Positions 3,828-21,263 of a stretch of DNA of 64,000 nucleotides are shown here, piece by piece (position 1 is the stretch's first letter; each line of letters opens with the position of its first letter). The stretch spans positions 248,001 through 312,000 of the forward strand of contig NZ_AULN01000014.1 in assembly GCF_000422305.1 (NCBI RefSeq). The letters run 5' to 3'. Both the position numbers and the translations under genes were made by a program. Below the pieces are notes generated by a model, which saw only the letters and a list, made by a program, of their open reading frames with translations, did no database searches and had not been told where the DNA came from. The DNA is from Luteimonas mephitis DSM 12574. Its GTDB lineage: Bacteria; Pseudomonadota; Gammaproteobacteria; Xanthomonadales; Xanthomonadaceae.

Positions 3828-3925
3828 AACGGCAGGCGGCATCTGGACGCAGAAATCACGGCAACTACAAAAAGATCATCGTTGGCAGATGTCCCACATT
3901 GACCGGCCCTGGGAGGGGAGACGTC

Positions 3926-6900: not shown

Positions 6901-6967
6901 CCGGAACGGCGTTGGCACGGTCTGGCCGCCGCGGATGTTCAAGTTGTCGTTCGGCCTCCACTGGTAA
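3926..6967 (+). CDS. TonB-dependent outer-membrane receptor with carboxypeptidase-regulatory-like N-terminal domain
   Basis: This 1013-residue protein should import a large substrate across the outer membrane using TonB energy. It has a cleavable signal peptide (basic start, hydrophobic LLACALASCMLLAAPQVLAQ), then a beta-sandwich CarboxypepD_reg-like module (about residues 33-115), a plug domain (about 130-270, containing QIEALPQASRNFLAF and VFIDGVGQKNYV), and a long beta-barrel ending in KLSFGLHW with a terminal aromatic residue. The ATG at 3926 is preceded by GGGAGGGGAG. This OAR-like architecture is abundant in Xanthomonadaceae sugar loci. Position between the LacI regulator and a glucanase implies oligo- or polysaccharide uptake; the ligand itself is inferred only from neighbours. 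Confidence 0.93.
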   Translation: MKSTHRSTRRHNRTLLACALASCMLLAAPQVLAQSTSATIRGQVSADSTPAGGATVKATNLATGLTRSVQSSGSGSYSLGGLPPGTYRLDVTANGQTNTQNITLQVGQTATLNLGVGGVAETAPAGEATTLEAVHVTAPLAVETKTSEVATYVSQKQIEALPQASRNFLAFADTVPGMIFETAANGSSKLRSGAQNSNGINVFIDGVGQKNYVLKGGVSGQDSSSGSPFPQLAIGEYKVITSNYKAEYDQISSAAVTAVTKSGTNEFSGDFFWDRTSDGWRDPTFSEEMRGSKVPSSEEQYGAALGGPIIPDRLFFFATYERKEINRPREIRLGTSNFDPAYITPEILSYLGSANAAFEQDNYFGKLTWQASDDHLIELSAKRREENEVTNVGDGPNVPSYGTRKANDSTRVDLRWQWSGDTWLNDLHLTSEDDFWSPRPITIGPGKSIRSTLSNFNDGDTLLNIGGGPDYQDKGQKGQSLQDDFTFTGFDSHTIKAGIKYKSVKINAFEQQPYNPLFRYDLAENIDDGRTAIADFLPWRVEFGAPLPGVGDRDVESRNKQYGIYIQDDWAVTEKLMLNLGVRYDFEKTPGFENYVTDPTLVAALRNWSNIHGPNVDYDIEDYISNGSNRDADKNNWAPRLGFSYDLFGDQRHVIFGGAGRSYDRNLFDYLALEQSKSTFPRYTYFFGTTDHPCAAGAANCVAWDPAYYDVANLYSLVAANPNLGSEVNMIKNDLETPYSDQFSLGMRNTFTVWEHDWNTSAAIAHVRSYDGIVFSLGNRWPDGSFRDPAKPGATWGSQPWGFPIPGYGTLILAENGIETRLNQFLLSIEKPYTNSSPWGVTIAYTYSDAEENRLNAANSDEHYNFDYPNLDGLPFITSVGIPKHRLVATGFGDFWGMTFSSKLTLASPNPKDSTNCYNTTSTDNCYFDSFIPDGTIGFKQLDVALQKTWNTGTDLEFYVRGDVFNVFNWKNYTDYDTWRGVPGNANPNFGNRNGVGTVWPPRMFKLSFGLHW

Positions 6968-7035: not shown

Positions 7036-8916
7036 ATGTTCCGCCGCAGTTTCTCCGCAATCTTCTACCTGCCCGTTTGCCTGTTGCTGGTCCTGTCGGC
7101 ATGCAAGAAGATCGAAGAGCCCGAGCGGTCACCGCCGCCACAGCAATCACCCGCATCGGAACCCGCGGTGCCCGTGGCCGACCGGCCGGCGCCGGAGCCG
7201 GAAACCGCCGGCCAGCCCGCGCTGCCGCCGCTGTTCAAGGACATCGAGAAGCGCACGTTCCAGTTCTTCTGGGACACCACCAACGAAGTCAACGGGATGA
7301 CGCCGGACCGCTTCCCGTCGCGGCCGTTCGCGTCCATCGCGGCGATCGGGTTCGCGCTGACCGCGTATCCGATCGGCATCGAGAACGGGTGGGTGAGCCG
7401 GCGCCAGGCGGTCGACCGCACCTTGACCACGCTGGAATTCCTGCGTGACGCGAAGATGGGGCCGCAGAAGGAAGGCACCTCGGGCCACCGCGGTTTCTAC
7501 TACCACTTCCTCGACATGCAGAAGGGCCAGCGCTACGAGCCGTGGGTGGAGCTGTCGAGCGTGGATACGGCGCTGATGATGATGGGCGTGCTGTTCACGC
7601 GCGGCTACTACGACCATGACGACCCGCGCGAGGCGGAAATCCGGAAGATCGCCGACGAGTTGTACCGGCGCGTCGACTGGCCCTGGCTGCAGGTGCGCTC
7701 GCCGCTGATCTCGATGGGCTGGTATCCGGAAACCGGATTCATCGAGCACGACTGGGAAGGCTACAACGAGGCCATGCTGGTCTACATCCTGGCGCTGGGT
7801 TCGCCCACGCACCCGATCGAGCCGGACGCCTGGGCCGCGTGGACCAGCACCTACGACCGCGGCTGGGGCCAGTTCGAAGGCCAGGAGTACCTGAGCTTCG
7901 CGCCGCAGTTCGGCCACCAGTACAGCGAGGTGTGGATCGACTTCCGCGGCATCCAGGACGAGTACATGCGCGCGCGCGGCATCGACTACTTCGAGAACAG
8001 CCGCCGCGCGACGCTGGCGCAGCGCACCTACGCCATCGAGAACCCGATGAAGTGGAAGGGCTACGACGAGAACGTCTGGGGGCTGACCGCTTCGGACGGG
8101 CCGCAGCGCACGACGCAGCTGTACAACGGCGAGGAGCGCGAGTTCCGCCACTACAGCGCCCGCGGCGCGGGCCTGCGCGATGCCTATGACGACGGCACCA
8201 TCGCGCCGACCGCGGCGCTCGGTTCGCTGGTGTTCGCGCCGGAGGTGGTGATTCCGGCGGCGGTGGAGATGCACGAGCGATACGGCGACTTCCTGTACTC
8301 GAGCTACGGCTTCCTCGACTCCTTCAACCCCAGTTTCGACTACGACATCCCGCTCAAGACTGGCCGCCTGGTGCCGGGCAAGGGCTGGGTGGCGAGCGAT
8401 TACATCGGCATCGACCAGGGCCCGATCCTGGCCATGATCGCCAACTATCGCAACGAGTTCGTGTGGAACGTCATCAAGCGCGACCCCTACGTCCGCCTCG
8501 GCCTGGAACGCGCGGGTTTCACCGGAGGCTGGCTGGAGGCGGGCAAGGACGGGACGCAGGCGGAAGCGGAGCCGGGCGCAAGGACGCCCGCGCAGGATGT
8601 CGGCGGCAAACCCGGCAGCCACGCGCCGGCGCCGGTGAGGCCGCCGCTCAAGGCGCCGCCCGCGCCGCAACCGAACCTGCAATCGCTGCGGATACACTGC
8701 CAACATGCGCCAAGCCAAGCCATCGCCACGACGCTGCATCCCTCATGCGCCGCGGATGCTGGCCGGCTGGCGCGCGCTCGGATGCCTGCTGGCCATCGTG
8801 CTGCTGTCGGCCTGCGCACGGCAGCAGGCGCCGGCGCGCGAGACCATCACGTTCTGGGTCATGGGCTTCGAGGGCGAGCAGGTCGCGCGACTGCTGCCGG
8901 AGTTCGAGCGGCGTAA
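7036..8916 (+). CDS. Glucoamylase-domain lipoprotein (GH144-like, candidate endo-beta-1,2-glucanase)
   Basis: The product (626 codons to the first stop) starts with a lipoprotein signal, CLLLVLSAC with Cys23, so it should be membrane-anchored. Residues about 70-510 form an (alpha/alpha)6-barrel of the PF10091 'putative glucoamylase' type: FFWDTTNEVNGMTPDRFPS, GHRGFYYHFLDM, LSSVDTALMMMGVLF, YNEAMLVYILALGSP and DYIGIDQGPILAMIANYRN. Characterised members of this family include GH144 endo-beta-1,2-glucanases, so that activity is the best guess, not a demonstration. The last 70 or so codons (from about 8705) run out of frame over the next gene's signal peptide and look like accidental translation. 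A TGA at 8636-8638 in another frame may mark the ancestral end. The ATG at 7036 is preceded by a weak CGAGG. Confidence 0.85.
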   Translation: MFRRSFSAIFYLPVCLLLVLSACKKIEEPERSPPPQQSPASEPAVPVADRPAPEPETAGQPALPPLFKDIEKRTFQFFWDTTNEVNGMTPDRFPSRPFASIAAIGFALTAYPIGIENGWVSRRQAVDRTLTTLEFLRDAKMGPQKEGTSGHRGFYYHFLDMQKGQRYEPWVELSSVDTALMMMGVLFTRGYYDHDDPREAEIRKIADELYRRVDWPWLQVRSPLISMGWYPETGFIEHDWEGYNEAMLVYILALGSPTHPIEPDAWAAWTSTYDRGWGQFEGQEYLSFAPQFGHQYSEVWIDFRGIQDEYMRARGIDYFENSRRATLAQRTYAIENPMKWKGYDENVWGLTASDGPQRTTQLYNGEEREFRHYSARGAGLRDAYDDGTIAPTAALGSLVFAPEVVIPAAVEMHERYGDFLYSSYGFLDSFNPSFDYDIPLKTGRLVPGKGWVASDYIGIDQGPILAMIANYRNEFVWNVIKRDPYVRLGLERAGFTGGWLEAGKDGTQAEAEPGARTPAQDVGGKPGSHAPAPVRPPLKAPPAPQPNLQSLRIHCQHAPSQAIATTLHPSCAADAGRLARARMPAGHRAAVGLRTAAGAGARDHHVLGHGLRGRAGRATAAGVRAA

Positions 8917-10048
8917 TCCCGGCATCCGTGTCGAACTGCAGCAGATGCCGGTGCTGTCGGCGCACGAGAAGCTGCTGACCGCGTTCGCCGGCGATTCGTT
9001 GCCGGACGTCACTCCGCTGGGCAACACCTGGATCCCTGAATTCGCGCTGCTTGGCGCGCTGGCGCCGCTCGACGACCGGATCGCCGCCACGCCCGGGTTC
9101 GACGTCGCCGACTATTACGCGGGTGCCTGGGACAGCGGCGTCATCGATGGCGTCACCTATGCCGTGCCTTGGTACGTGGAAACACGCTTGCCGTTCTACC
9201 GCGTCGACCTGTTGCACGAAGCCGGGATCGACGGGCCTCCGACCGACTGGGACGAATGGCGCACGGCGATGGCCGCGGTCAAGCGCGAGGTCGGGCCGAA
9301 GCGCTACGCGATCCTGCTTCCGCTCAACGAGTTCGAGCCGCTGCTCAACCTCGCCATCCACGATCCGCTGCTGCGCGACGGCGGCCGCTACGGCAATTTC
9401 CGCAGCGCGGGGTTCAGGCGCACGCTGGCGTTCTACAAGGAAATCTTCGACAAGGACTGGGCGCCGAGGGTCGGCAATACCGCGATCTCCAATGTCTGGG
9501 ACGAGTTCGGCAAGGGCTACTACACGTTCTACATCAACGGTCCCTGGAACATCGCCGAGTTCAGGAAACGCCTGCCGCCCGAGCTGGCCGGCACCTGGAT
9601 GACGATGCCGCTGCCGGGGCCCGACGGGCCGGGCGCGTCGGTGGCCGGCGGCACCAGTTTCGTGGTGTTCCGCAAGTCGGCGCACAAGGAAGCCGCGTGG
9701 AAGCTGGTTGCGTACCTGTCCGATCCGGCGGTGCAGGTGAAGTTCCACGGCATGACCGGGAACCTGCCGCCGAGGCGCTCGCCATGGAAGAATCCGGCGC
9801 TTGCGAACGACCCGTATGCGCGCGCGTTCCGCGACCAGCTCGAACGCGCGGTCTCGACACCCAAGGTGCCGGAATGGGAGCGCATCGCGACGGAACTGAA
9901 GCTGGTGGGTGAACTGGTCGCCAACGACCGCATGAGCGTCGACGAAGCGGCCGTGGAGCTGGACCGCCGCACCGATGCGATCCTGGAAAAGCGGCGATGG
10001 ATGCTCGACCAGGGCAACGGCCACGCGGTGACCGGAGCGATGCCGTGA
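8705..10048 (+). CDS. Extracellular solute-binding lipoprotein (family 1) of a sugar ABC importer
   Basis: The 447-residue product has a long basic N-region, a hydrophobic core and lipobox (CLLAIVLLSAC, Cys at about residue 37), so it is a lipid-anchored periplasmic binding protein. The mature part has the family 1 sugar-binding fold: ITFWVMGFEGEQVARLLPEFERRNPGI, LPDVTPLGNTWIPEF, VPWYVETRLPFYRVDLLHEAG, GGTSFVVFRKSAHKEAAWKLV. It would deliver an oligosaccharide to the two permeases that follow. ATG 8705 lacks a clear Shine-Dalgarno; an in-frame ATG at 8756 is an alternative and would remove most of the overlap with the upstream gene. Its TGA overlaps the GTG of the next gene. Confidence 0.92.
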   Translation: MRQAKPSPRRCIPHAPRMLAGWRALGCLLAIVLLSACARQQAPARETITFWVMGFEGEQVARLLPEFERRNPGIRVELQQMPVLSAHEKLLTAFAGDSLPDVTPLGNTWIPEFALLGALAPLDDRIAATPGFDVADYYAGAWDSGVIDGVTYAVPWYVETRLPFYRVDLLHEAGIDGPPTDWDEWRTAMAAVKREVGPKRYAILLPLNEFEPLLNLAIHDPLLRDGGRYGNFRSAGFRRTLAFYKEIFDKDWAPRVGNTAISNVWDEFGKGYYTFYINGPWNIAEFRKRLPPELAGTWMTMPLPGPDGPGASVAGGTSFVVFRKSAHKEAAWKLVAYLSDPAVQVKFHGMTGNLPPRRSPWKNPALANDPYARAFRDQLERAVSTPKVPEWERIATELKLVGELVANDRMSVDEAAVELDRRTDAILEKRRWMLDQGNGHAVTGAMP

Positions 10049-10923
10049 CGCGTTCGCTCGCAGGCTGGACCTTCGCCGCGCCGGCGCTGCTGGTGATCGT
10101 GGTGTTCTTCTTCCTGCCGGTGCTCGCCGCGCTCGCGCTGAGCGTCACCGACTTCGACATCTACGCGCTGGCCGATATCGACAACCTGCGCTTCGTCGCT
10201 CTCGACAACTACATCGGCCTGCTGCACAACCCGCTGTTCTGGAAGACGCTGGGCAACACGCTGTACTTCGTGATCGTCGGCGTGCCGCTGTCGATCGTGG
10301 TGTCGCTGGGCGCCGCGCTGCTGCTGCATTCGAAGCTCGGACGCTTCAAGGGCTTCTATCGCACCGCGTTCTTCGCCCCGGTGGTGACCACCGTGGTGGC
10401 GGTGGCGGTGATCTGGCGCTACCTGTTCCATACCCGCTACGGGCTGGTGAACTGGGGCCTGTCGTCGATCGGCATCGAACCGGTCGACTGGCTCGGCGAC
10501 CCACGCTGGGCAATGCCGACGATCATCCTGTTCGCGGTGTGGAAGAACTTCGGCTACAACATGATCATCTTCCTCGCCGGGCTGCAGTCGATCCCGGAAG
10601 ATCTATACGAAGCCGCGCGCATCGACGGTGCCGGTGTATGGCGGCAGTTCCGCCACGTCACCCTGCCGATGCTGGGGCCGGTGCTGCTGCTGGTCGGCAT
10701 CCTGACCATGTCCGGCTACTTCCAGCTGTTCGCCGAGCCCTACGTGATGACCCAGGGCGGGCCGCTGGAAAGCACCAAGAGCGTGCTGTACCTGATGTAC
10801 GACGAGGGCTTCAAGTGGTGGAACCTGGGCAACGCGTCGGCGGTGGCGTTCCTGCTGTTCGTGCTGATGGTTGCGGTGACCAGCGGGCTGCTGTGGTTCG
10901 CGCGCAGGAAGGGCGTGGAATGA
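10045..10923 (+). CDS. Sugar ABC transporter permease, MalF/UgpA type
   Basis: This 292-residue inner-membrane protein carries about six hydrophobic segments, starting with FAAPALLVIVVFFFLPVLAALAL. It also has the cytoplasmic EAA loop that contacts the ATPase, EAARIDGAGVWRQFRHVTLP. The start is GTG at 10045, inside the stop of the binding-protein gene (GTGA), and its own stop overlaps the ATG of the second permease. Together they form one half of the importer's transmembrane channel. The 'Ala-Pro-x-Leu' N-terminus and EAA loop place it in the CUT1 family of di- and oligosaccharide importers. The sugar cannot be deduced from the sequence. Confidence 0.93.
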   Translation: MTRSLAGWTFAAPALLVIVVFFFLPVLAALALSVTDFDIYALADIDNLRFVALDNYIGLLHNPLFWKTLGNTLYFVIVGVPLSIVVSLGAALLLHSKLGRFKGFYRTAFFAPVVTTVVAVAVIWRYLFHTRYGLVNWGLSSIGIEPVDWLGDPRWAMPTIILFAVWKNFGYNMIIFLAGLQSIPEDLYEAARIDGAGVWRQFRHVTLPMLGPVLLLVGILTMSGYFQLFAEPYVMTQGGPLESTKSVLYLMYDEGFKWWNLGNASAVAFLLFVLMVAVTSGLLWFARRKGVE

Positions 10924-11741
10924 AGCGTCCCCTTGCGACCGCCGTGGTCAACGGACTCCTGATCGCGCTGGCCGTGATCAGCCTGGCGCCGCTGCTGTGG
11001 ATGCTGTCGGTCTCGTTCATGCAGACCGGCGAAGCGGCGCATTTCCCGCCGCCGCTGCTGCCCGCCGCGCCCACGCTGGGCAACTACCACGAGCTGTTCG
11101 CCAAGGCGGGCATGGGCCGTTACCTGTTCAACAGCTTCCTGGTCTCGGCCTGCGTGACGCTGCTGGCGCTGCTGTTCAACACCATGGCCGGCTACGCGTT
11201 CGCGAAGCTGAAGTTCCGCGGACGCGAGCGGGTGTTCCGGCTGCTGCTGGCGGCGCTGGTGATCCCGGCGCAGGTGGCGATGATGCCGCTGTTCCTGTTG
11301 CTCAAGCAGATGGGGCTGGTGAACACCTACATGGGCGCGATCGTGCCGGGCATGGCGACGATCTTCGGCATCTTCCTGGTGCGGCAGTATGCGCGTTCGA
11401 TCCCCGACGAGCTGCTCGAAGCCGCGCGCATCGACGGCGCCGGCGAGATGCGGATCTTCTTCCAGATCGTGCTGCCGGCGCTCAAACCGATCATCGTCAC
11501 CCTGGCGATCTTCAGCTTCATGGCGGCGTGGAACGACTTCATGTGGCCGCTGATCGTGCTCAGCGACCAGGGCCTGCAGACCCTGCCGGTGGCGCTGGCC
11601 TCGCTGTCGCGCGAGCACGTGCAGGACAACGAACTGATGATGGCCGGCTCGGTGGTGACCATCGTGCCGGTGCTGCTGCTGTTCCTGGCGCTGCAGCGGC
11701 ACTACATCCAGGGTTTGCTGCTCGGGAGCGTGAAGGGGTGA
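10920..11741 (+). CDS. Sugar ABC transporter permease, MalG/UgpE type
   Basis: The 273-residue protein is the second channel subunit. It has an N-terminal hydrophobic helix (NGLLIALAVISLAPLLWMLSVSF), five further membrane segments, and the EAA loop EAARIDGAGEMRIFFQIVLPALKP. Near the C-terminus is the family's WNDFMWPLIVL segment. The ATG at 10920 overlaps the previous stop. The matching ATPase is not next in line but lies 8.4 kb away at 20151, after the minus-strand glucosidase/zwf block; such a split is common for MsmK/UgpC-type ATPases that can serve several importers. Confidence 0.93.
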   Translation: MKRPLATAVVNGLLIALAVISLAPLLWMLSVSFMQTGEAAHFPPPLLPAAPTLGNYHELFAKAGMGRYLFNSFLVSACVTLLALLFNTMAGYAFAKLKFRGRERVFRLLLAALVIPAQVAMMPLFLLLKQMGLVNTYMGAIVPGMATIFGIFLVRQYARSIPDELLEAARIDGAGEMRIFFQIVLPALKPIIVTLAIFSFMAAWNDFMWPLIVLSDQGLQTLPVALASLSREHVQDNELMMAGSVVTIVPVLLLFLALQRHYIQGLLLGSVKG

Positions 11742-11777: not shown

Positions 11778-11890
11778 CGAACGCACCGCCATGGCCGGGC
11801 CGGGCGTTCCGGAGCCTGCGAGGTCGCGCCATGGATGGCCAAACCGATACCAATTGAGCGAGATCCAATCAATGCCCAGCATCCCCACGC

Positions 11891-12012
11891 CGTCATTTCC
11901 GCGCAGGCGGAGTTTTCAACCGGCGAATGTCTTGCCATCCACGGACCTTGCTTTGACGGCATCTGTTCGAGAACAGCAACGTCCCTGGATCCCCGCCTGC
12001 GCGGGGATGACG
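11891..12012. repeat. REP-like inverted-repeat element overlapping a gene start
   Basis: Two inverted arms flank about 78 bp: CGTCATTTCCGCGCAGGCGG at the left and CCGCCTGCGCGGGGATGACG at the right, with about 19 of 22 positions matching as reverse complements. The right arm is itself a hairpin (CCCCGC-CTGC-GCGGGG). When translated, the right arm gives the peptide RPWIPACAGMT, seen in over-extended gene calls across bacteria carrying this repeat. The ATG inside its GGGATGACG end is the probable start codon of the next gene. Confidence 0.75.
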
Positions 12013-15000
12013 ATTGGGAAGGTCATTCTGATTCTTTGCACGCTCGTGTTTGCCCCCGCAAACGCCCAGGAGGTCCTGGGCGAGCCGCGGCTGCTCGACG
12101 GTTTCGAAGACGCCACTCCCTGGCGCGTGGTCACCTCCAACCAGGTCAGCGGCAAGCTGCGCGTGGTCGACGGCACGCAGGGCAGGGCGCTGTGCCTGGA
12201 TTACGATTTCAATGGCGTCTCCGGCTACGCCGGCATCCAGCGCGACCTGCCGATCGACTACCCGGACAACTACGCGTTCGCGTTCGAGATGCGCGGCGAC
12301 TCGCCCCACAACGACCTGGAGATGAAGTTCGTCGATGCCAGCGGCGACAACGTCTGGCGGGTGAAGCGGGATGCCTATCGGTTCCCCGCGCAATGGACGC
12401 CGGTGCGTTACAAGAAGCGCCACATCGACAAGGCCTGGGGGCCGAGTCCGGACCGGGTGCTGCGCCACAGCGCGAAGCTGGAGTTCGTGGTCGCCAACCG
12501 GGTCGGCGGGAAGGGCTCGGTCTGCTTCGACGCATTGCGGATGGAGCAGCTGGCAGCGGCCGACGACAGCCCGTTGGACGCGACTTCGACTGCCCCGGCA
12601 GGCAATGCATCGGCGGCCGTCGATGGCGATCCGCGGACGGCGTGGGAAACGCGCGATGGTGGGCGCCTGGTGCTGGACCTGGGCAGCGTGCGCGAGTTCG
12701 GCGGACTGACCCTGCATTGGGGCGAGGGCGCGCAGGCGTCGCGCTACGCGGTGCAGTTGTCCGCGGACGGCAAGACCTTCCGCGACGTGCGCCAGGTGAC
12801 GCAGGGCAACGGCGGCACGGACTGGATCGCGCTGCCGGAGTCGGAGGCGCGCTACGTCGGCATCGTGGTGCAGGGCGGGCCGGGGCAGGCGCGTCGACTG
12901 CAGGAGGCCAGGGTCGAGCCGCTGTCGTACGCGGCCACGCCCAACGACTTCATCCGCTCCGTGGCCGCCCAGTCGCCGCGGGGGCTGTTTCCGCGCGGCT
13001 TCAGCGGCGAACAGCCGTACTGGACGATCGTCGGCGTTGACGGCGGCAGCGACCAGGGGCTGATCGGCGAGGATGGTGCCGTCGAGGTCTCGCGTGGAGG
13101 CTTCCGCATCGAGCCGTTCGTGCTGCTGGGAGACAGGCTGGTCGGTTGGGCTGACGTGGAAGCGTCCCAGTCCCTGCAGGACGGCTACCTGCCGATTCCG
13201 AGCGTGGCGTGGACGCATCCGGGCTTCGCACTGCACGTCACCGCGTTCGCCCACGGCAACGCAGGCCGGGCGCAACTGGTTGCGCGTTACCGGCTGGAGA
13301 ACACCACCGACCGGCCGCAGGCGTACACGCTGGCGCTTGCGGTGCGACCGCTGCAGGTCAATCCGCCAAGCCAGTTCCTGAGCACGGTCGGCGGCGTCAG
13401 TCGCATCGACAGTCTTTCGATCGGCCCCCGCGTCATCGAAGTCAACGGCCGGCCGCGGCTGTTCGCGCGGCAGCCGCCGGACGCACGCTTCGCAAGCAGC
13501 TTCGACGGCGGCATGGCCGCCAGCCTGCTGGATGCCGGTACCCGGCCGGGCGCAACCGTTGCGAATGATCCCGAAGGCCTCGCCTCCGGCGCGCTGCTTT
13601 ACGAAGCCAGGCTCGAGCCGGGGGAGTCGCGCGAAGTGGACCTGCTGGCACCGCTGATCGGTGGGGCGCCACCATCGAGCGACGACTGGCACGCGGCGGC
13701 GTGGCAGGACGAGACGGCGCGCGAATGGCGGCAGAAGCTCGACCTGGTCCGCATCCAGGTGCCGCAGGCGGGCCAGGGGCTGGCCGACACCCTGCGCACC
13801 GCCACCGCGCACATGCTGATCTCGCGCGTCGGCCCGAGACTGCAGCCGGGTACCCGCTCATACGCGCGCAGCTGGATCCGCGACGGCGCGATGATCTCCG
13901 AAGGCCTGCTGCGGATGGGGCGCACCGACGCGGTACGCGAGTACGTGGACTGGTATGCGCCGTACCAGTTCAGGGACGGCATGGTGCCGTGCTGCGTCGA
14001 CGACCGCGGCAGCGATCCGGTACCGGAAAACGACAGCCACGGCGAACTGATCTTCAACATCGCCGAGCTGTACCGCTACGACGGCGACAAGGCGTTCCTG
14101 GGAAAGATGTGGCCGCACGTGCTCGCCGCGTTCGAGTACATGGAAAAGCTGCGCCTGAGCGAGCGCACCGAAGCCAACCGCGTCAGGAACCCGGCGTTCT
14201 ACGGACTGATGCCGGTGTCGATCAGCCACGAGGGCTATTCGGCCAAGCCGATGCATTCGTACTGGGACGACTTCTGGGCGCTGCGTGGCTACAAGGATGC
14301 GGTGGAGATCGCGCAGGCGCTTGGCAAGGACGACGAAGCGCGGCGGATGGCGGCTTCGCGCGACCAGTTCCACGCCGACCTCCAGGCCTCCCTGTTCGCG
14401 GCGGTGGCGCAGCACGACATCGACTACCTGCCGGGCGCTGCCGAACTGGGCGATTTCGACCCGACTTCCACCACGATGGCGTTGGCGCTCGACTTGGGGC
14501 CCGTGGGAGCGCCTGGCGACTGGCTGCACTATGCCGGGCTGCTGCACGGCACCTTCGAGCGCTACTGGCGCGAGTTCCGCCAGCGCGAAACCGGCCAGCG
14601 CGAATGGAAGGACTACACACCGTACGAGTGGCGCAACGTCTCGGCCTTCGTGCGCCTGGGCTGGCGCGAGCGGGCATGGGACGCGACGCAGTTCTTCTTC
14701 AAGGATCGCGCGCCGCAGGCTTGGAACCAGTGGGCCGAAGTGGTCTCGAGCACGCCGCGCAAGCCGTTCTTCGTCGGCGACCTGCCGCATGCCTGGGTGG
14801 CATCGGATTTCGTGCGCTCGGCGCTGGACATGTTCGCCTACGCGCGCGAGTTCGACGACAGCATCGAACTGGCGGCGGGAATTCCGATCGACTGGTTCCA
14901 GGGCAAGGGCGTGGCGATCCACGGACTGCGCACGTCGCAAGGCACGCTGGGATACTCGCTGCGACGCGACGGCAACCAGCTGCGGCTGGATATCGATGCG

Positions 15001-15171
15001 GATACCGGGCTGCCGACCGGCGGGCTCGTGTTTTCGTGGCCTTACTCCGGCAAGCCGGGCAAGGCGACAGTGAATGGCGAGCCCGTGCGCTGGCAGGGCC
15101 AGGAGTCGGGATTCACTCCCGCGCTGCGCATCCATGCCGTGCCCGCGAAGCTCACCATCCAGGTCGAGTAA
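12007..15171 (+). CDS. Secreted multidomain six-hairpin glycosidase with discoidin (F5/8 type C) domain
   Basis: From ATG 12007 the product has 1054 residues and starts with a signal peptide (KVILILCTLVFAPANAQE). Residues about 25-190 resemble a CBM11/CIA30-like jelly roll (LLDGFEDATPWRVVTS). Residues about 195-300 form a discoidin-type domain (NASAAVDGDPRTAWETRDGG, LVLDLGSVREFGGLTLHWG). A linker beta-domain follows. From about residue 610 there is an (alpha/alpha)6-type catalytic region with SWIRDGAMISEGLLRMGRTD, DSHGELIFNIAELYRYDGDK and PYEWRNVSAFVRLGWRERA. It was not assigned to a numbered GH family. Context suggests it acts on oligosaccharides reaching the periplasm. Codons upstream of 12007 come from the REP-like element and are rejected as coding. 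Confidence 0.82.
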   Translation: MTIGKVILILCTLVFAPANAQEVLGEPRLLDGFEDATPWRVVTSNQVSGKLRVVDGTQGRALCLDYDFNGVSGYAGIQRDLPIDYPDNYAFAFEMRGDSPHNDLEMKFVDASGDNVWRVKRDAYRFPAQWTPVRYKKRHIDKAWGPSPDRVLRHSAKLEFVVANRVGGKGSVCFDALRMEQLAAADDSPLDATSTAPAGNASAAVDGDPRTAWETRDGGRLVLDLGSVREFGGLTLHWGEGAQASRYAVQLSADGKTFRDVRQVTQGNGGTDWIALPESEARYVGIVVQGGPGQARRLQEARVEPLSYAATPNDFIRSVAAQSPRGLFPRGFSGEQPYWTIVGVDGGSDQGLIGEDGAVEVSRGGFRIEPFVLLGDRLVGWADVEASQSLQDGYLPIPSVAWTHPGFALHVTAFAHGNAGRAQLVARYRLENTTDRPQAYTLALAVRPLQVNPPSQFLSTVGGVSRIDSLSIGPRVIEVNGRPRLFARQPPDARFASSFDGGMAASLLDAGTRPGATVANDPEGLASGALLYEARLEPGESREVDLLAPLIGGAPPSSDDWHAAAWQDETAREWRQKLDLVRIQVPQAGQGLADTLRTATAHMLISRVGPRLQPGTRSYARSWIRDGAMISEGLLRMGRTDAVREYVDWYAPYQFRDGMVPCCVDDRGSDPVPENDSHGELIFNIAELYRYDGDKAFLGKMWPHVLAAFEYMEKLRLSERTEANRVRNPAFYGLMPVSISHEGYSAKPMHSYWDDFWALRGYKDAVEIAQALGKDDEARRMAASRDQFHADLQASLFAAVAQHDIDYLPGAAELGDFDPTSTTMALALDLGPVGAPGDWLHYAGLLHGTFERYWREFRQRETGQREWKDYTPYEWRNVSAFVRLGWRERAWDATQFFFKDRAPQAWNQWAEVVSSTPRKPFFVGDLPHAWVASDFVRSALDMFAYAREFDDSIELAAGIPIDWFQGKGVAIHGLRTSQGTLGYSLRRDGNQLRLDIDADTGLPTGGLVFSWPYSGKPGKATVNGEPVRWQGQESGFTPALRIHAVPAKLTIQVE

Positions 15172-15195: not shown

Positions 15196-15939
15196 TCACG
15201 GACACCAGTGCACCCGCAGCCGCGCGCCCGGCGTGGTGAAGGCGAGGCGGATCGGGAGTTCCAGCGGGTCGGTGCCGTCCATCGCGCGTTCGAACACGCG
15301 GCGCTTGTGCTCGCCGCGGATCAACAGCAGCCGCATGCGCGAAGGCGCGAGCCCGGCCGGCGTCAGGCTGATGCGGCGAGGCCAGGGGCCGGCGCCGGGA
15401 CAGCCTGTGGCATCGACGGAGACGTAGGCCTTGGCGCTGGCGAGCAGCTGGTCCAGCCCGCGCAGGCCGGGGAACAGCGATGCGGTGTGGCCATCGTCGC
15501 CCATGCCGAGCACCACCGCGTCGGCGGCCTGGTTGGCGTGCAGGTTGGCCGTGGCCACGGCTTCCTCGATGCTGCGGCCGGGGCGCGTCAACGTCTCGAA
15601 GCGCGCGTTGGCCGCCTTGTCGTGCAGCAGCGTGCTGCGCACGAGGTGGGAATTGCTGTCGGGGTCGTCCGGCCGCAGCCAGCGTTCGTCGACGAGGGCG
15701 ACGTCGATCCGCTGCCAGTCCAGCGGCGCGCGCGCCAGCGCTTCGTAAACCGGGCCTGGCGTCGAGCCGCCCGACAGCAGCAACCGTGCGCGCGGACGCT
15801 GTTCCAGTGCGCGCCGCAGTTCGCCGGCCAGGATGACGGCGCTGGCCCAGGCCCACTGCTCCGCGCTCTGGTAGGACAGGAAATGCACGCGCGAGCCCTT
15901 GATTTCCATGTCCGGCCGGTGGTCGTCGTGCTCGATCAT
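15196..15939 (-). CDS. pgl: 6-Phosphogluconolactonase
   Basis: Pgl hydrolyses 6-phosphoglucono-delta-lactone, the product of Zwf, to 6-phosphogluconate. The 247-residue protein shows the SugarP_isomerase/NagB-like signatures LLLSGGSTPGPVYEAL, ALVDERWLRPDDPDSN and LGMGDDGHTASLFPG, all expected in bacterial Pgl. The ATG at 15939 overlaps the stop of glk (ATGA), so zwf-glk-pgl form one tightly coupled minus-strand unit. Its 3' end converges on the large glycosidase gene, only 24 bp away, with no clear bidirectional terminator. Edd and Eda, which would complete the Entner-Doudoroff route, are not in the window. Confidence 0.94.
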   Translation of the reverse strand: MIEHDDHRPDMEIKGSRVHFLSYQSAEQWAWASAVILAGELRRALEQRPRARLLLSGGSTPGPVYEALARAPLDWQRIDVALVDERWLRPDDPDSNSHLVRSTLLHDKAANARFETLTRPGRSIEEAVATANLHANQAADAVVLGMGDDGHTASLFPGLRGLDQLLASAKAYVSVDATGCPGAGPWPRRISLTPAGLAPSRMRLLLIRGEHKRRVFERAMDGTDPLELPIRLAFTTPGARLRVHWCP

Positions 15940-16958
15940 GTCGTGGTCATAGTCGTCGCGCCCGATTGCCGTGCAATGACCGCACAGCCGAGCAGGCCGG
16001 CGTGCGGATGCAACACTGCCATCGATGGTACCCGAGCCATGTTCGGCGAGAACCGTCCCTTGTGCTCGAATCGCTGGCGGAAGCCGGAGTGCTGCAGTGC
16101 ATGCAGCATCTTCGGGACCACGCCGCCGGCCAGGAACACGCCGTCCCAGGCGCCGGTGGTCAAGACCAGGTCGCCGGCGATGGCGCCGAATACCGCGCAG
16201 AAAACGTCGACCGCGCGCATGCAGCGGACGTCGCCTGATTCCGCGCCGGCGGTGATGTCCGCCGGCTGCATGGGGCCCGGGTCGACGCCGGCGATTTCGC
16301 TCAGGGCGCGATGGATGTTGACCAGCCCGGGCCCGCAGACGAGGCGCTCGTTGGAAACCCGCCCGAACTGCGCAGACAGTCGCTCGAGGATGGCGATCTC
16401 CTCAGGTGTCCCGGGCGGGAAGCTGACGTGGCCGCCTTCGGTTTCGAGCGGCCAGCAACGGCCATCGCGCACCACCAGGATGCCGACGCCCAGGCCCGTA
16501 CCGGGGCCCATGACGGCGTAGATGCGATCAACCGGCGTGGTGTCCGGACTCCAGGTCGCGCCGCCAACGGCGACCACTTCGCCTTCGCGCAGCGCCGGGA
16601 TCGCCATCGATTGCGCGGCGAAATCATTGACCAGGCGCAGGGCGGAGAAACCAAGCATCTCGCGGATGCGCGGCGCGGAAATCACCCACGGGTGGTTGGT
16701 GATGCGGGCGTGCCCGCCCTCGACGCGCCCGGCCACGGCGAACACGCCGCCGCGGACCGGTTCGCCGCCGGCCATCGCGCTGCCGCCATCGGCGAGGTAG
16801 CGCTGTGCGGCATCGCCCAGCGAGGGGAAGTCGGCGACGGCGTACTCGATCACGCTGTCTTCGCGCAGCGGCATCCGCGCCGCAGTATCGGCCAGCGCGA
16901 ATCGCGCGTTCGTGCCGCCGATGTCGGCGAGCAGCACGTGCTGGCCGATGTCGCTCAC
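15936..16958 (-). CDS. glk: Glucokinase
   Basis: Glk phosphorylates intracellular glucose with ATP. The 340-residue product has the N-terminal phosphate-binding motif LLADIGGTNARFALAD, the sugar-binding VNDFAAQSMAIPAL, the second phosphate loop MGPGTGLGVG, and ETEGGHVSFPPGTPEE, all characteristic of proteobacterial Glk (PF02685). A GTG start at 16958 is chosen because it forms GTGA with the zwf stop and places the ADIGGTN motif 10-15 residues in. Further in-frame codons upstream lie inside zwf. In this operon it links the glucose released by the beta-glucosidase to glucose 6-phosphate. Confidence 0.95.
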   Translation of the reverse strand: MSDIGQHVLLADIGGTNARFALADTAARMPLREDSVIEYAVADFPSLGDAAQRYLADGGSAMAGGEPVRGGVFAVAGRVEGGHARITNHPWVISAPRIREMLGFSALRLVNDFAAQSMAIPALREGEVVAVGGATWSPDTTPVDRIYAVMGPGTGLGVGILVVRDGRCWPLETEGGHVSFPPGTPEEIAILERLSAQFGRVSNERLVCGPGLVNIHRALSEIAGVDPGPMQPADITAGAESGDVRCMRAVDVFCAVFGAIAGDLVLTTGAWDGVFLAGGVVPKMLHALQHSGFRQRFEHKGRFSPNMARVPSMAVLHPHAGLLGCAVIARQSGATTMTTT

Positions 16959-18409
16959 GCGGCCGGTTTCCCGGTCTGTTTCCCGCCCTGCTTCCGCTGC
17001 CCCCTGGTTGAAAGGGTCACCGGCAGGAAGTCCGAGGCCGCGGCCGGTCCCCAGGAGCCGGCGGGGTAATTGTGCACCGGCGTCGCGGCCTCCTGCCACG
17101 CGCTGCTGACGCTGTCGATCCAGCCCCACGCCGCCTCGACTTCATCGTCGCGCACGAACAGCGTCTGGTCGCCCTTGAGTGCGTCTACCAGCAGTCGCTC
17201 GTGGGCGATGCGACGAGCGGGCGTCGGCGACATCGACAGGTCCAGCGACATCGGCTGCAGCTCGGTCGCACCCCATTCCGGCGCCGCCAGGCTGCCCATC
17301 AGTCCGAGTTCGATCGTCTCCTCCGGCTGCAGGCGCATGCGCAGGCGGTTGGGCCGCGCGCGTTCGCGGTCGGGGCGTTCGAATACCCAGTGCGAGACCG
17401 GCTTGAACGACACCACCACCTCGGTGGTGCGCGAGGGCATGCGCTTGCCGGTGACCAGGCGGAACGGCACGCCGGCCCAGCGCCAGTTGTCGATGTACGC
17501 GCGCAGGGCGACGAACGTCTCGACGTCGCTGTCGTGGGTGAAGCCGTTGACCGCCTCGCCCTCGACCACGCCGGTGTCGTAGCGCCCGCGCACGCTGTCG
17601 ATGGCCACGTCCCTTGCCGTCATCGGCCGCAGCGCGCGCAGGACCTTGGTCTTCTCGTCGCGGACGGTGTTGGCGCTCAGCTCCGACGGCGGCTCCATGG
17701 CGACCAGCGCCAGCAGCTGCAGCATGTGGTTCTGCACCATGTCGCGCAGCGCGCCGTAGTTGGCGTAGTAGCCCTCGCGTCCGTCGACGCCGGCGGTCTC
17801 GGCGACCAGGATGTCCACCGAGGCGATCCAGCGGTGCTGCCACACCGCTTCCATCAGCGTGTTGCCGAAGCGCAGCGCCAGCAGGTTCTGCACCGGCGCC
17901 TTGCCCAGGTAATGGTCGATGCGGAAGATCCGGGATTCGTCGAGCGCCGAGCCCAGCGTGGCGTTGATCGCGCAGGCGCTGGCCAGGTCGCGGCCGATCG
18001 GCTTTTCCAGCACCAGCCGCGACTGCCCTTCGAGCAGCCCGGCGGCCTTCAGCCCGCGGCAGGCGGGTACGAACAGATCGGGTGGCGTCGACAGGTAGCT
18101 GACGCTGGGCCGGTCCGCGTACTGCGACAGGGCGGTGCGCATCGCCTCGGGATCGTTGAGGTCCAGCGACAGGTAGCGGGTGCGCGCGAGCAGGTCGTCG
18201 AGCACGTCGGCGTCGCGGCCGTCGCCGTCGTCGAGCCGCTCGCGCAGCCATTGCCCGAAATCGGCATCGTCAAGCCCGGTACGCCCCACGGCCACCACCC
18301 GGAACGTCGGCGGCAGCAGCCGGTCGCGCAGCAGATGCAGCAGTGACGGGAACAGGTAGCGCTGGGCCAGGTCACCGGTCGCGCCGAACAGCAGCAGGGT
18401 GTCGTGCAT
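16955..18409 (-). CDS. zwf: Glucose-6-phosphate 1-dehydrogenase
   Basis: Zwf oxidises glucose 6-phosphate to the lactone with NAD(P)+. The 484-residue product starts MHDTLLLFGATGDLAQRYLFPS, containing the nucleotide-binding GxxGDLA(Q/K)R motif. It has LEKPIGRDLASA and the signature RIDHYLGKAPVQNLLALRF with the catalytic His. Length matches the family. The open frame continues upstream through the heptad-repeat DNA (giving IPNPQSPIPNPQSP), which is clearly not coding; ATG 18409 is the natural start. It precedes glk and pgl and follows the beta-glucosidase gene, from which it is separated by the 158-bp repeat-bearing spacer. Confidence 0.95.
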   Translation of the reverse strand: MHDTLLLFGATGDLAQRYLFPSLLHLLRDRLLPPTFRVVAVGRTGLDDADFGQWLRERLDDGDGRDADVLDDLLARTRYLSLDLNDPEAMRTALSQYADRPSVSYLSTPPDLFVPACRGLKAAGLLEGQSRLVLEKPIGRDLASACAINATLGSALDESRIFRIDHYLGKAPVQNLLALRFGNTLMEAVWQHRWIASVDILVAETAGVDGREGYYANYGALRDMVQNHMLQLLALVAMEPPSELSANTVRDEKTKVLRALRPMTARDVAIDSVRGRYDTGVVEGEAVNGFTHDSDVETFVALRAYIDNWRWAGVPFRLVTGKRMPSRTTEVVVSFKPVSHWVFERPDRERARPNRLRMRLQPEETIELGLMGSLAAPEWGATELQPMSLDLSMSPTPARRIAHERLLVDALKGDQTLFVRDDEVEAAWGWIDSVSSAWQEAATPVHNYPAGSWGPAAASDFLPVTLSTRGQRKQGGKQTGKPAA

Positions 18410-18417
18410 GGGAGCCG

Positions 18418-18560
18418 GGATTGGGGATTGGGGATTCGGGATTGGGGATTGGGGATTCGGGATTGGGGATTGGGGATTGGGGATTGGGCAGTAAAAGACG
18501 GGATCCGGATCGCGGCGAGGATGCTGCCCTACCGAATCCCCAATCCCCAATCCCCAATCC
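18418..18560. repeat. Heptad repeat array (GGATTGG)n with inverted counterpart
   Basis: Ten consecutive 7-bp units run from 18418 to 18487, mostly GGATTGG with GGATTCG at the third and sixth units. After a 45-bp spacer, four units in opposite orientation (CGAATCC and three CCAATCC) occupy 18533-18560. The two blocks can pair into a long hairpin. The array fills the space between the bgl stop and the zwf start on the minus strand. Similar GGGATT heptads are known in Xanthomonadaceae genomes. Confidence 0.9.
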
Positions 18561-18567
18561 TGTGCTT

Positions 18568-19953
18568 CTAGGGCAACGGCTCCGCCAAAACGCCACCGTG
18601 GCTCGCGATCACTCGAGAATACCAGCGGCCGGAGTCCTTGATCGTGCGCTCCTGGGTGCCGTAGTTCACGTGCACGATGCCGAAGCGCTTGCCGTAGCCC
18701 AGCGACCATTCGAGGTTGTCCATCAGCGACCACGCCATGTAGCCGCGGATGTCGACGCCCGCTTCGATCGCGTCATGGATCGCCGACAGGTGCTTTTGCA
18801 GGTAGTCGGTGCGCAGCGGATCGCGCACGCGGCGCGCGCCCGAAGCGTCCACGCCGGCCACCGGCGGGTCGAAGAACGCGGCGCCGTTCTCGGTGATGTA
18901 CAGCGGGATGTCGCCGTAGGTCTGCTTGAACCACAGCAGCAGGTCGGTCAGGCCCTGGGGAAAGACTTCCCAGCCGGTTTCGGTGTAGGTACCCAGCGGC
19001 TGTTTCACGGCGCAGGCATCCAGCGGGTAGCTGTCGGTCGCCTCGGTCACGCTGCGGGTGTAGTAGTTGATGCCGATGAAGTCCAGCGGCTGGGCGATCA
19101 GCTTGAAGTCCTCGGCCGGGAACCGAGGCCACGCATCGCCGAAGATTTCCTGCAGTTCCGGCGGATAGCGGCCGAGCAGGGCGGGGTGCAGGTACTGCTC
19201 GTTCATGTAAGCGTGCGCGCGCTTCACCGCCGCCGCGTCGTCGGCCGAATCGCTGGCCGCGTACTTGGGTTCGATGTTCACCACCAGCCCGATCTCGTGC
19301 TTGCCGGTCGCGCGATACGCCTGCACCGCGGCGCCATGCGCGCGCATCAGGTTGTGGCTGGCGATGGGCGCTTCGTACTTGCTGCGGTGGCCGGGGGCCA
19401 GCGCACCGTGCAGGTAGCCGCCGTCGGTGATCACCCACGGCTCGTTGAGCGTGACCCACTTCTTCACCCGGCCGTCGAGCGCGCGGTACAGCACGTCGCC
19501 GTACTCGGCGAACCAGTCCGCGCAGTCGCGGTTGAGCCAGCCGCCGCGGTCGTCGAGCGCTGCCGGCAGGTCCCAGTGGTACAGCGTGAGCAGGGGCTCG
19601 ATGCCGTTGGCCAGCAGTTCGTCGACCAGCCGCGAGTAGAAGTCCACGCCGGCCTGGTTCACCCGGCCGGTGCCCTCGGGCAGGATCCGCGACCACGACA
19701 CGCTGAACCGATAGGCCTGCAGGCCGAGTTTGCGCATCAGGCGCACGTCGTCCTTCCAGCGCCGGTAGTGGTCGCAGGCCACGTCGCCGGTGTCGCCGTT
19801 GACGGTCATGCCCGGGGTGTGGGCGAAGCGGGTCCAGATGCTCGGCCCGGCGCCGTCGGCCAGCGGTGAACCCTCGATCTGGTGGGCGGCAGTGGCCGCT
19901 CCCCACAGGAATCCCTTTGGAAAGGAAAAGTCCTTTTGCTGCGTTTGCGCCAT
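18568..19953 (-). CDS. GH1 beta-glucosidase, probably cytoplasmic
   Basis: The 461-residue protein is a complete glycoside hydrolase family 1 (beta/alpha)8 barrel. It has the N-terminal signature FPKGFLWGAATAAHQIEG, the acid/base motif WVTLNEPWV and the nucleophile motif YITENGAAF, plus the C-terminal GYMAWSLMDNLEWSLGYGKRFG. No signal peptide is seen, so it would act on imported beta-linked disaccharides or oligosaccharides. The ATG at 19953 is preceded by GAGGAAG at proper spacing. A second in-frame ATG at 19995 would overlap the operator. A LacI-type operator lies 42 bp upstream of the start. The gene heads the unit bgl-zwf-glk-pgl, delivering glucose to Glk and Zwf. Confidence 0.94.
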   Translation of the reverse strand: MAQTQQKDFSFPKGFLWGAATAAHQIEGSPLADGAGPSIWTRFAHTPGMTVNGDTGDVACDHYRRWKDDVRLMRKLGLQAYRFSVSWSRILPEGTGRVNQAGVDFYSRLVDELLANGIEPLLTLYHWDLPAALDDRGGWLNRDCADWFAEYGDVLYRALDGRVKKWVTLNEPWVITDGGYLHGALAPGHRSKYEAPIASHNLMRAHGAAVQAYRATGKHEIGLVVNIEPKYAASDSADDAAAVKRAHAYMNEQYLHPALLGRYPPELQEIFGDAWPRFPAEDFKLIAQPLDFIGINYYTRSVTEATDSYPLDACAVKQPLGTYTETGWEVFPQGLTDLLLWFKQTYGDIPLYITENGAAFFDPPVAGVDASGARRVRDPLRTDYLQKHLSAIHDAIEAGVDIRGYMAWSLMDNLEWSLGYGKRFGIVHVNYGTQERTIKDSGRWYSRVIASHGGVLAEPLP

Positions 19954-19994
19954 CGGTAATGCTTCCTCGGGTGGTCCGGGCTGCCCGGTCTTCA

Positions 19995-20008
19995 TGAAAA
20001 CGATTACA
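19995..20008. promoter_or_regulatory. Putative LacI-family operator between bgl and the ABC ATPase gene
   Basis: TGAAAACGATTACA fits TGNAANCGNTTNCA in full and differs at one base from the site at 2723-2736. It sits in the divergent promoter region. A TATTCT hexamer on the minus strand (20013-20018) could be the -10 box for bgl, which would put the operator across the transcription start. Repression by the LacI-type regulator at 2.8 kb is inferred. Confidence 0.7.
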
Positions 20009-20150
20009 TGCCAGAATACCGTATCGAATCGGGCGAGTGTAATGTCGGGAAGCGCGAGAACCGGCGCTTCGGCAGGGGTTCGCCCGGCCTTCGCCGGAAC
20101 CGTGACGGCCGACGACAATGCGGGGCGCCGACCCGCGAACCGGAGAACGC

Positions 20151-21263
20151 ATGGCCAGCGTCAAGCTCGACAACCTGCGCAAGGTCTACCCCAACGGCTA
20201 CGTCGGCGTGGCCGACGCCAGCTTCCAGGTCGCCGACGGCGAACTGCTGGTGCTGGTCGGGCCTTCTGGCTGCGGCAAGTCGACCTTGTTGCGCATGATC
20301 GCGGGGCTGGAAACGATCACGTCGGGCACGTTGAAGATCGGCGACCGCGTGGTCAATGACGTCTCGCCGAAGGACCGCGACATCGCGATGGTGTTCCAGA
20401 GTTACGCCCTGTACCCGCACATGACGGTGGCCGAGAACCTCGCGTTCGGGCTGAAGCTGCGCGGCCACGACAGGGCCGCGATCGCCGGGCGCGTGGCGGA
20501 AGCCGCGAAGACGCTGGAGCTGGACGAGTTGCTCGACCGCAAGCCCGGAGCGCTGTCCGGCGGCCAGCGCCAGCGCGTCGCGCTCGGCCGCGCACTGGTG
20601 CGCAAGCCGCAGGTGTTCCTGCTCGACGAACCGCTGTCCAATCTCGACGCCAAGCTGCGCATGTCGATGCGGGTGGAAATCGCGCGCCTGCACCGCCAGC
20701 TCGGCGCGACCATGGTCTACGTCACCCACGACCAGATCGAGGCAATGACCCTCGGCCAGCGGATCGTGGTGCTCGACAAGGGGCTGATCCAGCAGATCGA
20801 CACGCCGATGGCGCTGTACGAGAAGCCGGCGAACGTCTTCGTCGCGACTTTCCTGGGCAGCCCGAAGATGAACCTGCTGCAGGGCGAGCTCGTCGAAGGC
20901 GGGAGTGAGCGCGATCGCGGGTTGTGGCTGCGCATCGCCGGCGATATCGAGCTGCCGCTGTCGCCGGAGGATTTCATGCGTGATGCGTTGCGGTCACGGC
21001 TTGGACAGCGACTGGACATGGGCCTGCGGCCGGAAGACATGCGGATCGTCGACGGCAGCGACCGCGCGCAATTGCCGGCGCGGGTCGAAGCGGTGGAGCC
21101 TGTCGGCAACGAAGCCTTCGTCAACCTGCGCTGCGGCGACAGCGAGATCATCCTGCGCCAGCCTCCCAACGACCTGCCGACGCCGGGCGACGTCGTGCAT
21201 CTTGCGTACGCGCCGGGACGTGCGCACTTTTTCGACAGCGACACTGGCGCGCGAATCGGCTGA
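20151..21263 (+). CDS. Sugar ABC transporter ATP-binding protein, MalK/UgpC/MsmX type
   Basis: The 370-residue ATPase should energise the importer encoded at 8.7-11.7 kb. It has Walker A GPSGCGKSTLLRMI, Q-loop VFQSYALYPHMTVAENLAFG, signature LSGGQRQRVALGRALVR, Walker B VFLLDEPLSNLDAKLR and the switch His in VYVTHDQIEAMTLG. A C-terminal OB/TOBE regulatory domain follows (LRPEDMRIV). This layout is typical of CUT1 ATPases. The ATG at 20151 opens at MASVKLDNLRKVYPNG. It is divergent from bgl and shares the operator-bearing region, so the two are probably co-regulated. Such ATPases can serve several importers, so dedication to this one is not certain. Confidence 0.94.
   Translation: MASVKLDNLRKVYPNGYVGVADASFQVADGELLVLVGPSGCGKSTLLRMIAGLETITSGTLKIGDRVVNDVSPKDRDIAMVFQSYALYPHMTVAENLAFGLKLRGHDRAAIAGRVAEAAKTLELDELLDRKPGALSGGQRQRVALGRALVRKPQVFLLDEPLSNLDAKLRMSMRVEIARLHRQLGATMVYVTHDQIEAMTLGQRIVVLDKGLIQQIDTPMALYEKPANVFVATFLGSPKMNLLQGELVEGGSERDRGLWLRIAGDIELPLSPEDFMRDALRSRLGQRLDMGLRPEDMRIVDGSDRAQLPARVEAVEPVGNEAFVNLRCGDSEIILRQPPNDLPTPGDVVHLAYAPGRAHFFDSDTGARIG

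Follow-up and report, generated by a model that had tools for sequence, protein, structure and literature searches.

A glycosidase-like protein of a conserved β-1,2-glucan operon in Luteimonas mephitis, a candidate for cleavage of the α-1,6 bond of cyclized β-1,2-glucans

An enzyme that makes α-1,6-cyclized β-1,2-glucan (CβG16α), an infection factor of Xanthomonas, was reported in 2024 (PMC11228985, cited here, like the other papers below, from excerpts of its text). This enzyme, XccOpgD of glycoside hydrolase family 186 (GH186), closes a β-1,2-glucan into a ring through an α-1,6 bond, and Trp76 (or Tyr), Asp343 and Arg477 mark the GH186 enzymes that do so (PMC11228985). In the open-licence text of PubMed Central we found no description of an enzyme for the α-1,6 bond of the product; the excerpt of PMC12471234 mentions a 2025 talk on the synthesis and degradation of cyclic β-1,2-glucan and names no such enzyme. 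On the side of breakdown, XCC2207/XcSGL is a β-1,2-glucanase whose structure was solved with the sophorooligosaccharide Sop7 (PMC12102758), and Lin1841 is a binding subunit for Sop3-5 (PMC12369401). Here we analyse a window of 64,000 nucleotides from Luteimonas mephitis DSM 12574 (contig NZ_AULN01000014.1, positions 248,001 to 312,000), in which a gene at 12007-15171 (+ strand) encodes a secreted glycosidase-like protein of 1054 residues. We propose, with a probability of about 0.5, that this protein is a periplasmic or cell-surface inverting α-glucosidase for the α-1,6 bond of α-1,6-cyclized β-1,2-glucans or of the fragments that GH144 makes from them. The gene, its fold model, its conserved residues, its operon and its co-occurrence with other glucan genes are established in this analysis.

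An initial annotation of the window, made from its letters, had placed an open reading frame at 12007-15171, and this is borne out by a translation with no internal stops and by homologues in other genomes. Named genomes yielded 438 relatives in a scan, of which the best 80 loci were retained; these encode nearly full-length homologues with 59-67% identity in the best segment, which argues against a chance open reading frame. Nearly all of their record titles name Lysobacteraceae genera, and the L. mephitis genome itself has a single match. Residues 1-20, MTIGKVILILCTLVFAPANA (12007..12066, +), form a likely signal peptide, judged by eye from translation and DNA. The frame is open upstream as far as 11752, and the exact start is uncertain because the start codon sits inside a repeat-like stretch. 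This stretch (11890-12020) has a GC-rich hairpin, lies between the upstream permease gene and the glycosidase-like gene and overlaps the likely start codon; we take it to resemble a repetitive extragenic palindromic (REP) element, and no clear second copy was found within the window.

To describe the architecture of the protein we used two AlphaFold2 models, one of residues 21-1054 (model 1; mean predicted local distance difference test score, pLDDT, 86.0; predicted template modelling score, pTM, 0.85) and one of the β-sandwich and barrel (model 2; mean pLDDT 85.1, pTM 0.89). An N-terminal jelly roll, assigned from the secondary structure of the model (about residues 21-185; 12067..12561), is followed by a discoidin or carbohydrate-binding module 32 (CBM32)-type domain (residues 191-290; 12577..12876), a β-sandwich that is covered when the structure is aligned with GH15 and GH94 enzymes (about residues 339-551; 13021..13659), an (α/α)6 barrel that is the predicted catalytic domain (about residues 563-943; 13693..14835) and a β-rich C-terminal tail (about residues 944-1054; 14836..15168), all on the + strand. 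The domain order given by the initial annotation holds, except that its "linker" is the folded β-sandwich and that the β-rich tail follows the barrel; the six-hairpin barrel it had recognised is present in both models. Its discoidin domain (F5/8 type C) was recovered by PF00754 with E 1.3e-14 and 54.8 bits, above the cut-off of 28.2, and by 5zu6 and 4zz5. The jelly roll that it called CBM11-like is a jelly roll by its modelled strands, with a weak likeness to CBM11 of endoglucanase H (2lro/1v0a, E 0.06). Searches against the sequences of solved structures returned binding-domain-type matches only and none for the barrel, which is therefore assigned from the structure model. In four genomes of a family that we place as Rhodanobacteraceae, the discoidin stretch of a close copy of the protein is unmatched, so this domain may be dispensable.

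Structural comparison of both models with VIA-align ranks the GH15 dextran dextrinase 9ju0 first, at Z 26.4 for model 1 and at Z 29.6 and 3.6 Å for model 2, the latter over 547 residues that span sandwich and barrel. For model 2 the next entries are 7c24, 5z3b, 5z3c and 7c25, titled "Glycosidase" (Z 26.1-26.6), which we take to be isomaltose glucohydrolase, and GH65, GH78 and others follow within a few Z units; the chains compared were those ranked by Foldseek, so that families missing from that ranking remain in play. The protein resembles GH15 enzymes (9ju0, glucodextranase 1ug9 and the glucoamylases) in its β-sandwich and (α/α)6 barrel, its W-x-R-D motif, a Glu that aligns in the last loop and, by eye, a Glu before helix 6, but differs from them in the additional jelly roll and discoidin domains, the β-1,2-glucan setting and the missing match to PF00723 (GH15), which was not seen even at E<=1. 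Of 38 relatives in an alignment, 10 give a weak match to this profile (best E 0.0034). Scanned as a protein, the sequence reaches none of the curated glycosidase cut-offs of Pfam and NCBIfam: PF06202 scores 14.1 bits against 21, and the sole NCBIfam match, TIGR01577 (oligosaccharide amylase), scores 26.8 against 820.7. PF17389 (GH78) is borderline against its cut-off of 24.5, with 22.4 and 23.2 bits by hmmscan and 24.8 in a whole-genome search. GH78 enzymes share the (α/α)6 barrel; a GH78 α-L-rhamnosidase was nevertheless set aside, because the seven clear PF17389 matches in the same genome search score more than ten times as high (282-377 bits). The statement that the protein fits no numbered family thus stands for the protein scans, with GH78 borderline, and a strong match to a known glycosidase family is absent from Pfam and NCBIfam. 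The protein is best regarded as forming a family of its own in the vicinity of GH15 and GH94.

Within the barrel, W623-I-R625-D626-G627 (13873..13887, +) holds the putative Arg-Asp pair of the -1 subsite, E742 in SHEGYS (14230..14232, +) is the putative general acid, and E911 in WAEVV (14737..14739, +) is the putative general base. R625, D626, E742 and E911 are invariant in all 55 sequences of a first alignment (55 of the 81 available, namely the window and the 80 loci) and in all 38 of a second, for which we chose orthologues (40-70% identity to the L. mephitis protein), members of a distant group (20-24%) and paralogues (33-36%); E674, D676, D754, D925, H928 and W930 are also invariant in the 38. 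In hhalign, WIRDGA is paired with WLRDA of GH15, and the residue opposite E911 is the LSED Glu of the α11-α12 loop. E742 is left unaligned there and by eye is in gapless register, up to a shared His-x-Tyr, with the Glu of GH15 WEFRG. We take the LSED Glu to be the general base and the WEFRG Glu to be the general acid of GH15, and the roles suggested for E911 and E742 follow from conservation and this motif comparison, not from model coordinates. The loop positions of the catalytic glutamates given in the excerpt of PMC12446779 agree with these roles; in dextran dextrinase the residues named are Glu671, Glu858 and Arg542-Asp543. Judged by conservation, the carboxylates expected of a glycosidase thus appear to be in place. 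Among the motifs singled out by the initial annotation, RDG shows no variation at any of its three positions across the 55 sequences; conservation of DSHGEL is high there but incomplete (D, S, H and L invariant, G and E at 90% or more), and WRNVSAF is mostly kept within the 55 and drifts outside them.

The operon suggests β-1,2-glucan as the substrate class. The glycosidase-like gene is preceded on its own strand by genes for a TonB-dependent receptor (the proposed first gene; 3899..6967, Pfam; true start probably inside the frame), a GH144 endo-β-1,2-glucanase with a lipoprotein-like start by eye (7036..8916, PF10091), the sugar-binding lipoprotein (SBP) of an ATP-binding cassette (ABC) importer (8705..10048, Pfam; true start inside the frame) and two ABC permeases (9997..10923 and 10920..11741, Pfam and NCBIfam). 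The GH144 protein matches XCC2207/XcSGL (8xul_A) with E 3.3e-261; it is a different protein from the one studied here, with which it shares the operon and the presumed substrate class. The SBP best matches 3uor, Xac-MalE of X. citri (E 1.8e-157), a putative maltose/trehalose-binding protein described as of unknown specificity (PMC7676653), and then Lin1841 (5ysb, E 1.4e-53); its operon suggests a binder of β-1,2-glucooligosaccharides. The order GH144-SBP-permease-permease-glycosidase, on one strand, is kept in 78 of the 78 testable loci (two of the 80, L059 and L071, lie on contigs too short to count), in agreement with the sugar locus around GH144 first described for the window, and 74 of the 78 have a TonB receptor match. 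The gap between permease and glycosidase, extrapolated in the relatives from match ends, has an estimated median of 9 bp and is shorter than the 265 bp of the window, where the repeat-like hairpin lies, in 64 of the 78. One locus with these genes in the Lysobacteraceae order (L060) comes from a record titled Bacillus subtilis, probably through contamination or mislabelling. Taken together, the protein very probably serves β-1,2-glucan metabolism in some way. With an endo-β-1,2-glucanase in the operon and a β-glucosidase close by, the α-1,6 bond is the unmet chemical task, and this task fits a site like that of GH15 and the association with α-1,6-cyclizing GH186 described below.

More distant loci, at which operon genes were found by similarity to the window proteins so that unlike genes may be missed, show related settings. 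The gene stands beside the same importer and GH144 in four of them (L153, L154, L155 and L161; two of these genomes fall outside the class, and of the other two, one shares the order and one the family). In L150, from another family of the class, it is flanked by an NdvB-like GH94 gene on one side and the importer on the other, and GH1 and MdoG genes are nearby. In L148, also from another family of the class, two MdoG/GH186 (opgG/opgD-type) genes immediately precede the homologue, and similarity to the window proteins revealed no importer.

Co-occurrence was examined in 274 evenly drawn genomes of the class, among which MdoG is found in 42 and PF10091, in GH144-sized or CGS-sized frames, in 30. 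A strong match to the protein occurs in nine genomes, all of which have both MdoG (hypergeometric p 2e-8) and PF10091 (p 7e-10); any match at all occurs in 18, and the nine weak, distant ones (best E 8.7e-13) were not counted as carriers. Two carriers, G068 and G196, have PF10091 matches that are only partial, in frames 690 and 728 residues long. Among the 30 PF10091 genomes, carriers make up 9 of the 13 with MdoG and 0 of the 17 without (p 5e-5), or 6/9 and 0/17 when collapsed by family (p 3.6e-4). The W/Y76-D343-R477 cyclase signature, read in 41 of the 42 MdoG genomes (G260, with a fragmented MdoG, was dropped), is present in 6/9 carriers and 2/32 non-carriers (p 4.5e-4), and by family in 4/6 and 1/24 (p 0.0026); family counts were made by hand, any carrier making a carrier family. 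A test on W/Y76 and D343 gives 6/9 and 5/32 (p 0.006). Of the non-carriers, G160 and G199 have the signature; G199 shares its genus label with carrier G068. An aromatic residue at position 76 failed on its own as a discriminator, since most of the GH186 proteins read have Tyr there. The evidence points to GH186-type, α-1,6-cyclized β-1,2-glucans as the substrate, beyond the GH144 products named in the initial annotation.

Several results weigh against an α-1,6-acting enzyme. GH15 pockets bind a terminal glucose, and the α-linked glucose here carries a chain on O2, so the protein must either tolerate a glucose substituted at O2 in its -1 subsite or work after trimming. Residues 721-726 of model 1, a stretch containing E742, and 609-619 of model 2, after E911, have pLDDT below 50, as do residues 307-312 of model 2, before the Arg-Asp pair, so that the geometry of these parts of the active site is unreliable. 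Shared ancestry enters the co-occurrence counts only by the family collapse, and three of the nine carriers (L. mephitis itself, G174 and G196) have an MdoG that lacks the cyclase signature. The only MdoG/GH186 of L. mephitis (L163:1387-2916) reads Y/A/Y at the signature positions, and its glucan could therefore be something other than CβG16α; this reading resembles clade 4 of PMC11228985. A second set, of 28 genomes selected by hand, contains 22 carriers of an orthologue, 11 of which have no MdoG. The loci of five of these 11 were followed: four (G289, G637, G767 and G701) have a GH144-importer locus, which we read as scavenging, and the fifth (G632) ends at a contig end. At four distant loci (L147, L149, L151 and L152), no β-1,2-glucan gene was recognised among the neighbours examined, part of which were scanned; the gene immediately upstream of the L151 homologue encodes an SbmA/BacA-like transporter. 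Finally, Foldseek E-values rank GH94 first, above GH15, and hhalign does likewise (GH94 1.4e-10, GH15 5.6e-8, GH78 1.8e-5, GH65 2.2e-5), with E-values that are only roughly comparable because the sets differ in size (29 sequences including the window for GH15, 20 drawn mostly from CGS-sized frames for GH94, 6 for GH78 and 14 for GH65).

These rankings, together with the β-1,2-glucan context that the protein shares with GH94 and the NdvB phosphorylase domain, the GH144 partner at every testable locus and the NdvB-like GH94 gene that adjoins the homologue in L150, would suit an inverting exo-hydrolase of GH94-like descent that releases glucose or sophorose from β-1,2-glucooligosaccharides, with Glu911 replacing phosphate and no α bond involved. 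We consider this unlikely, though far from negligible. The GH94 motif GDWND has no counterpart in the alignment and TG(S/T)AxW is replaced by LPHAWVAS; as we take the Asp of the former to be catalytic and the latter to lie on the phosphate side, a phosphorylase is unlikely. A further β-1,2 enzyme would also be less needed beside GH144 and GH1, in VIA-align the dextran dextrinase of GH15 leads by 3 Z units, and such a hydrolase would leave unexplained both the 0/17 among PF10091 genomes without MdoG and the link to the cyclase signature. Another reading makes the protein a general α-glucosidase whose substrates are imported sugars (maltose, trehalose or sugars of the isomaltose type), with the importer a maltose/trehalose system as in the annotation of Xac-MalE. 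It would agree with the GH15 and OtsA genes downstream, yet is improbable given that the second SBP match is the Sop3-5 binder Lin1841 (PMC12369401), that GH144 is in the operon throughout, and that the L148 homologue follows two MdoG genes where no importer was found by similarity. Slightly less credible again is a retaining α-transglucosylase that modifies or re-links glucans in the manner of the GH15 dextran dextrinase: that enzyme is the top VIA-align match, the mechanism of a GH15 protein is not deducible from sequence alone (PMC12446779) and the MdoG setting of L148 is biosynthetic, whereas the commonest setting, with importer and GH144, is catabolic. That the protein merely binds carbohydrate or serves as a structural component, catalysis having been lost, is suggested by its discoidin domain and jelly roll but is very hard to reconcile with two glutamates and an RD pair that never vary among the 38 sequences, even at about 20% identity.

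Returning to the α-1,6-acting glucosidase, we infer the stereochemistry, the bond, the roles of the two glutamates and the order of steps as follows. The TonB receptor would take the glucan in, GH144 would cut its β-1,2 bonds, and the protein would remove the α-1,6 block that XccOpgD-type enzymes install in biosynthesis, with R625-D626 holding glucose at the -1 subsite, E742 acting as general acid and E911 as general base. The resulting β-1,2-oligosaccharides would be taken up by the ABC importer, whose probable ATPase partner is a MalK/UgpC-type protein (20118..21263, +; Pfam and NCBIfam). A GH1 β-glucosidase (18568..20118, -; PF00232, 2.5e-157), for which no signal peptide was evident by eye, could then release glucose for glucokinase (15936..17129, -; PF02685), glucose-6-phosphate dehydrogenase (16955..18733, -; PF00479/PF02781) and 6-phosphogluconolactonase (15196..15939, -; PF01182), leading to 6-phosphogluconate; the first three of these frames have their true starts inside.

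Outside the window, the L. mephitis genome has a second β-1,2-glucan cluster (G000:C4:406001-419815), with a PF10091/GH144-sized protein (406001, minus strand), a 1330-residue GH94 frame (409822) and a 2961-residue CGS-like frame (415325-419815). A paralogue group of the same order (L156, L157, L158 and L161:17282-19603) has 33-36% identity and about 1050 residues. The L157 member has a discoidin domain near its start, and the L161 member lies close to the operon described above, on the opposite strand. No GH144-operon genes were found beside the paralogue in L156 and L158, and L157 has only a weak ABC-ATPase match. A distant group (L159:8206-10488, L162:9231-11501 and others), mostly of 750-900 residues and 20-26% identity, retains both glutamates and the RD pair; the single member scanned with Pfam has no match at 1e-4.

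We suggest, more tentatively than the activity itself, that the protein may be the founder of a new glycosidase family, an enzyme dedicated to opening the ring of OpgD-type cyclic β-1,2-glucans at its α-1,6 bond and taking an O2-substituted glucose at -1. It would serve both turnover by producers and feeding by scavengers on a glucan that aids Xanthomonas in evading plant immunity. If the proposed activity is true, it would add a glycosidase family with a testable activity, provide a tool to detect, quantify and linearise α-1,6-cyclized β-1,2-glucan, and explain the whole operon.

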